Source of the DNA: Cyclonatronum proteinivorum
GTDB lineage: Bacteria; Bacteroidota; Rhodothermia; Balneolales; Cyclonatronaceae
Length of the DNA: 64,000 nt
Reading direction: 5' to 3'
NCBI RefSeq assembly: GCF_003353065.1
Contig: NZ_CP027806.1
Span: 3,430,501-3,494,500 of the forward strand
Part shown: piece by piece, positions 33,156 through 33,831 of the stretch
Numbering within the stretch: position 1 is the stretch's first letter
How the letters are laid out: each line of letters opens with the position of its first letter
Notes under the pieces: generated by a model
The model's input: only the letters and a program-made list of their open reading frames with translations
What the model was told of the DNA's origin: nothing
Database searches by the model: none
Program-made: the position numbers and the translations under genes

Positions 33156-33250
33156 AGTAATCTTTTTGTTTGTGTTAGTTCAGCGCTCTAAACAGCCCGC
33201 CTGCACTAAATGTTCCGTGCGCGCCAAACTGATCTCTCCGATTCAGATAA

Positions 33251-33504
33251 CCCGCATTATTCACAGTTAAACAGGATTTATTTGCTAAGTGTAAGTTTAC
33301 AATTTGCTTAGCTAAAAACAGCGGTAGTCCAAATTTGAGTGTGGTGTAAAGACTGCGCACCGAGCGAAGCGATTCCCACGAAGTGAAATTTCCCCGCTGG
33401 CTGCGTTGAAGCTGAGAACTCATGCTCAGGGTACTTGGGTACCCTTCCGCTGAGTTTTCAGCTTCGCCTTGCCAGCAAGAAAATTTCTTAGTGAATAATG
33501 CGGG
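33251..33504. mobile_element. Non-autonomous transposable element (MITE-like)
   Basis: 254 bp bounded by perfect 14 bp terminal inverted repeats, CCCGCATTATTCAC (33251-33264) and GTGAATAATGCGGG (33491-33504). They are flanked by the direct repeat ATAA (33247-33250 and 33505-33508), a 4 bp target duplication. Inside is a 103-nt hairpin (33385-33487). The left third, read on the minus strand, resembles the tail of a transposase. A 4 bp duplication and CC-start ends recall the IS1380 family, but I cannot confirm that. No full transposase is present, so it would have been moved in trans. Confidence 0.75.
33385..33487. repeat. 103-nt hairpin inside the mobile element
   Basis: GAAATTT...GCTGGC...GAAGCTGAGAACTCA on the left pairs with TGAGTTTTCAGCTTCG...GCCAGC...AAATTTC on the right. 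At the tip AGGGTAC (33428-33434) and GTACCCT (33439-33445) form a perfect 7 bp stem around TTGG. A few mismatches interrupt the long arms. Confidence 0.8.
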
Positions 33505-33576
33505 ATAAATTCGAAAATCCCGCAAAATGAAACGGGCAGGCTGAACGACTGTAAAGGGCCTGTCTGTTCGGTTGAC

Positions 33577-33831
33577 ATGGATAACAAACAAGACTTAACG
33601 CCCGGAGATATTTCGCGCATCATCGAGATGGCCTGGGAAGACCGTACTCCTTTTGAAGCTATAGAATTTCAGTTCGGACTTAAAGAAAACGACGTACGCG
33701 CACTCATGCGCCGCCACATGAAAGCTTCGAGTTTCAGGATGTGGCGGAAGCGTGTTGGCGGGAGGGTAACCAAACACCTGAAAAAACGCTCCGATGGCAT
33801 TAGCCGGTTCAAAGCTCCGGGGCAAAAGTAG
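33577..33831 (+). CDS. TIGR03643 family protein (DUF2805)
   Basis: An 84-residue basic protein. The sequence LTPGDISRIIEMAWEDRTPFEAIE, then GLKENDVRALMRRHMKASSFRMWR, matches TIGR03643, a family of unknown role. The first half looks like a small helix-turn-helix, and the C-terminus is rich in Lys/Arg (KHLKKRS), so nucleic-acid binding is plausible. The start ATG is 73 bp downstream of the mobile element end, so that element may supply or disturb its promoter. A terminator follows at 33855. Confidence 0.82.
   Translation: MDNKQDLTPGDISRIIEMAWEDRTPFEAIEFQFGLKENDVRALMRRHMKASSFRMWRKRVGGRVTKHLKKRSDGISRFKAPGQK

Follow-up and report, generated by a model that had tools for sequence, protein, structure and literature searches.

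Bacterial MITEs, such as those derived from IS5, IS630 and Tn3, are short and gene-free, have exact inverted ends and a target duplication, reach high copy numbers and are moved in trans; they are usually regarded as insertion sequences reduced by deletion to passive remnants. The ERIC and Correia (NEMIS) elements are high-copy and intergenic, their ends are inverted repeats, and they contain a long hairpin that is transcribed in some settings and for which an action in cis on transcripts has been proposed. Among the insertion sequences themselves, IS630 duplicates TA and IS5 uses YTAR targets.

We analysed an element of 254 bp located in a window (the whole stretch of DNA under study, 64,000 nucleotides) of the Cyclonatronum proteinivorum chromosome. 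This element has the features of bacterial MITEs listed above, probably including movement in trans, but its interior is not the remnant of any parent that we found, and it contains a covarying, loop-conserved hairpin which is common to elements with different ends. It resembles the ERIC and Correia elements in its high copy number, intergenic setting, inverted ends and long hairpin, whereas its 4-bp YTAR-type duplication, its ends and its hosts are different and its fold is conserved between species while the sequence changes. In another genome, G277, the same hairpin core is found between ends that also occur on a 1217-bp IS630 element (NF033545); the window element, in contrast, is bounded by CCCGCATTATTCAC and duplicates 4 bp of the YTAR type instead of TA. 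With IS5 it has the YTAR targets in common. The IS701 family produces exact 4-bp duplications (PMC2266710) and is similar in that respect. No member of either family with CCCGCATTATTCAC ends was found, however, and the resident IS701-type elements end in CTGGAG.

The 254-bp element and its sister copies

The element occupies positions 33251-33504 of the window, between two ATAA duplications (33247-33250 and 33505-33508). Its left terminal inverted repeat, CCCGCATTATTCAC (33251-33264, plus strand), is the exact reverse complement of the right one (33491-33504, minus strand; GTGAATAATGCGGG on the plus strand), and the perfect 14-bp inverted ends and the ATAA on both sides are thus as the preliminary description had reported them. 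The left arm (33265-33354, plus strand) is A+T-rich and includes a short stem, GCTAAG...CTTAGC, and a motif, CCAAATTTGAGTGTGGT, that recurs in other species. It is followed by a 28-bp module, GCGCACCGAGCGAAGCGATTCCCACGAA (33355-33382), and by a structured-RNA-like hairpin core on the minus strand (33381-33490), which matches covariance model R1 with 112.7 bits. The insert folds with an energy 7 s.d. lower than that of shuffled sequences, and no credible gene is present within the 254 bp. The flanking genes are divergent, an SDR gene on the minus strand (33155-32436) and a TIGR03643-type gene on the plus strand (33577-33831), the names being those of the preliminary description and of the appearance of the sequences. 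Elsewhere in the window the end motif has a single match, with two mismatches, when 0.37 is expected by chance.

A search of the 4.29-Mb genome with the 14-mer end motif (at most one mismatch) returned 107 + 110 = 217 matches, compared with 0 + 0 for the reversed control, and all of the 40 blastn candidates scored in the same genome, out of 141, were full or partial sister places; the genome therefore contains elements on the order of one hundred. The preliminary description had pointed to the 14-bp ends as a means of finding sister copies, and these proved to be abundant. Short, non-coding, with exact terminal inverted repeats, a target-site duplication and many copies, the element has characters by which MITEs are recognised, which supports the view that it is a MITE-like, non-autonomous element of the DDE type.

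The lengths of the elements cluster at 226-228, 254-256 and 282 bp, corresponding to zero, one and two copies of the 28-bp module, respectively. Near-identical copies of this module were also observed outside recognisable MITEs in related genomes (L080, L081 and L082). The genome also has many shortened elements of 74-221 bp, with deletions at the hairpin. Hairpin-less elements with clean duplications exist, and since most of them differ in their breakpoints this looks like deletion after insertion; three elements with one common deletion may represent a hairpin-less subfamily. The copies showed no sign of a replication-strand bias in this genome (roughly 18 versus 22 by strand, judged by eye with a weak GC skew).

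Among elements of 130-345 bp from this genome and its relatives, identical 4-mers flanked 111 of 164, as ATAA does here, compared with 45 in a side-shuffled control, and 92 of these 111 were YTAR. When only the elements of the genome itself were considered, the 4-mers were identical in 37 of 56 (13 in the shuffled control). Flank pairs with a TA centre, TTAA/TTAA being excluded, agreed in 45 of 67 cases, an agreement that a duplication of TA only would not produce. The target duplication of the family is truly 4 bp with the consensus YTAR.

The same gene pair was found without the insert, in an otherwise similar gene order, in four relatives of the same genus (G001, G002, G004 and G005). In three of them the gap between the two genes is approximately that of the window minus 254 bp and one ATAA; G001 has a gap of several hundred bases. 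The empty site for which a search in relatives had been suggested was thus observed at the level of the gene pair, the sequence of the gap being too diverged to place the exact junction. Because the relatives have the gene pair without the insert, the insertion probably postdates the divergence of these species, though it is not demonstrably recent. The recent movement proposed in the preliminary description is overstated, since the nearest sister copy is 93% identical (blastn, among the 40 scored of 141 candidates) and most copies keep exact ends.

The end pattern was present in 50 of the 129 genomes of the order, with uneven counts: 167 in this genome and 172-173 in G008 and G040, but none in G004 and G005, which belong to the same genus. 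The single matches seen in some genomes were chance matches inside genes. The extended end pattern, CCYGVATTATTCACCAAGAAATTT, was found in 115 stretches in 85,000 species, and the matches listed came from Balneolia, mostly from MAGs, with the exception of one brine MAG titled Chitinophagaceae. No similar DNA was found in the plasmids and phages searched, and no description of this MITE family was found in the open-access literature.

Fold and covariation of the hairpin core

The 110 nt adjoining the right end (minus strand, 33490-33381) form a long hairpin. Read inwards from the right end on this strand, it consists of helix 1, AAG..A, a GCG-CGC pairing with a CAA bulge, helix 2, an A bulge and a GGA-GA internal loop, and helix 3. 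Across species the sequences of the helices vary and yet remain paired, and the loops are kept. This conserved, covarying hairpin is a new result, absent from the preliminary description.

In a first set of 17 sequences with a hand-written structure, 91.6% of the cells were paired and compensatory changes were observed in 24 of the 40 pairs, with 110 compensatory cells compared with 37 in shuffles and 6-23 when the partners were slid. From the alignment alone, RNAalifold arrived at an almost identical fold, 25 of its pairs being compensated, and a previous alignment scored -37 kcal/mol for this strand and -18 kcal/mol for the opposite one. In a second set, composed of covariance-model matches including distant ones, compensatory changes were found in 32 of the 40 pairs (155 cells compared with 54 in shuffles and 18-36 with slid partners); this set is not fully independent of the first, because it was aligned to the model, includes three mirror-strand matches and has a few sequences common or close to the first, and the pair counts of both sets are of non-independent events. 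The loops AAG, CAA and GGA/GA and the bulged A were 0.87-1.00 identical, compared with 0.58-0.77 for the three main helices. The core thus combines two general marks of a structured RNA, compensatory changes above controls and conserved loops; no Rfam family matched it above the gathering score.

The hairpin could also belong to an ordinary MITE and be kept only through palindrome self-repair, by template switching at quasi-palindromes, the fold having no function. Template switching can yield compensatory changes without selection, the frequent deletions in the elements of 74-221 bp indicate that the palindrome is mutable, and no clear direction bias towards genes was seen, all of which agree with such a process. 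Repair of this kind makes perfect palindromes, however, and would erase the asymmetric loops and the bulged A, which are instead conserved across species. Nor would it prefer G-U over A-C on one strand: G-U exceeded A-C in 16 of the 17 sequences and the reverse was seen in none, with 38 G-U cells to 4 A-C cells across species and a weaker excess (48 versus 25) among the copies of the genome itself. Such an asymmetry is expected of RNA or of folded single-stranded DNA, in which G-T pairs form too, and not of a DNA palindrome. We therefore consider repair an unlikely explanation.

Slightly less likely still is a cis-acting role of the hairpin in transcripts nearby, as a terminator, an RNase III site or an mRNA stabiliser, by which insertions would be kept harmless, in the manner proposed for ERIC and Correia elements. 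The hairpin is long and stable, its strand-asymmetric wobble pairs indicate RNA and most of the 45 copies examined are intergenic, as this explanation would have it. The asymmetry also predicts a preferred direction relative to the neighbouring genes, whereas no clear bias was found, the RNA strand being opposite to the flanking genes in 19 tandem cases and the same in 11 (genes taken as mechanical ORFs).

Candidate parents and helper transposases

The IS1380 lead of the preliminary description, under which the element would be a MITE of recent IS1380 origin, has in its favour the CC ends, the short duplication and the six IS1380 transposase genes of the genome, but it is highly improbable because the resident IS1380 copies (NF033539, 291 bits) have other ends, CCTGAATCCGTGA / TCACGGATTGAGG, and duplications of 5-6 bp, and because of the 93% identity of the nearest sister (40 scored of 141). 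The resident IS701, IS4-like, IS982-like and other multi-copy DDE elements were rejected as parents on account of their different ends; another member of the IS701 family may be the parent. An IS630-derived origin of the window copy was rejected as well, since it needs a TA duplication and that of the element is 4 bp.

No CCCGCATTATTCAC-type ends were found near the single-copy DDE element (L178), and no DDE_Tnp_1 gene was found between matching ends in twelve motif-bearing relatives or in 2.45 Mb of examined sequence. The end pairs located 0.7-3.5 kb apart in these 2.45 Mb corresponded to two MITEs, or to one MITE and a chance match, around ordinary genes, and the MITE pairs about 2.8 kb apart in the genome itself flank unrelated DNA. 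The exact ends inspected in this genome, among those listed, were MITE ends, four of them unpaired within the limits of the search. The full-length parent that the preliminary description had suggested looking for was not found in the examined parts of the genome, at its DDE_Tnp_1 loci or in the relatives; for much of the genome the search was by family or pattern only, so that a single degenerate parent may have escaped it.

A 2490-bp parent candidate (L353:2971-5460, Balneolaceae MES10) was rejected when it resolved into two ordinary genes flanked by a complete MITE on one side and a partial one on the other. The two genes are cation-efflux-like and thioesterase-like, as assigned by eye, both outer sides are TTAA and a composite unit is possible. 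The resident IS701-type element (transposase of 457 aa, NF049999, 172.8 bits; ends CTGGAG...CTCCAG) was seen at L117 (G000:C1, ~324.8-328.9 kb) and L121 (~382.4-386.3 kb), and the exchanged flanks of these two loci suggest that 58 kb were inverted between two copies of the IS, with the splitting of a MITE. This element adjoins palindromes such as GTGCCCCTACAGGGCAC and also sits within a MITE, in the apical loop.

The core between other ends

The covariance model found the core in 43 of the 245 genomes of the class, including four outside the order (G277, G330, G529 and G530), and in 17 of the 394 genomes of a phylum sample, all 17 inside the class. G277 and G330, which by inference are Rhodothermales, carry the examined core copies in elements of 165-169 bp with the ends TAGTGCTGCGTCAAG and TAGTGTCACGACACG and targets that are mostly CTAG. 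The core matches in these two genomes are modest (33-37 bits), and homology is based on fold, loops and setting. No match to the Rhodothermales pattern was found in the viral contigs searched.

In G277, six pairs of the same ends, TAGTGCTGCGTCAAG, as those of the 165-bp core elements were found 1217 bp apart, and the copy that was read contains an IS630 transposase in two frames. The 1217-bp and 165-bp elements have common ends and different interiors, and the former is a candidate helper of the latter. Since IS630 duplicates TA and the window family YTAR, the core is carried by elements of two target types.

The reading that we favour, and hold to be rather probable, is that the element is one member of a MITE family that extends across Balneolia and has a conserved RNA-like core and exchangeable ends, a satellite moved by a DDE transposase in trans and able to change its helper. 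The transposase would recognise the 14-bp ends, join them to a YTAR target and duplicate 4 bp. The interior appears to be a conserved module and not the remnant of any transposase gene seen in this analysis; the minus strand of the window is predicted to fold into the long hairpin with fixed internal loops, and the covariation, the conserved loops and the bias of G-U over A-C argue that this fold is under selection in lineages that keep spreading. The core probably acts as a single-stranded nucleic acid, most likely an RNA from one strand, and may either help the element to spread or make its insertions tolerable. Less in line with an RNA, only the end repeat is located upstream of this strand, so that transcription would have to start outside the element, and the strand has no clear preferred orientation to the genes around it. 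The element looks modular, the same core apparently having been combined with YTAR-type ends in Balneolales and, in one or more genomes of Rhodothermales, with ends of the IS630 type, and the matching ends in G277 suggest that the satellite can change its helper transposase. More tentatively, such elements could constitute a new kind of satellite transposon, in which a structured RNA of about 105 nt is constant and the ends are swapped to follow the transposase of the host (YTAR in Balneolales and IS630 in Rhodothermales).

The interior structure is here the best-conserved part of a MITE, and the presence of the core between different ends suggests that what selection keeps in a non-autonomous transposon can be a nucleic-acid fold, and that satellites of this kind can change helper. 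Several hosts within the order carry the element in about 100 copies, which makes it a natural test set for the effect of the fold. A separate structured RNA was observed in G277 at L389:551-658, a Bacteroidales small SRP RNA (RF04183, 90.7 bits, above the gathering score).
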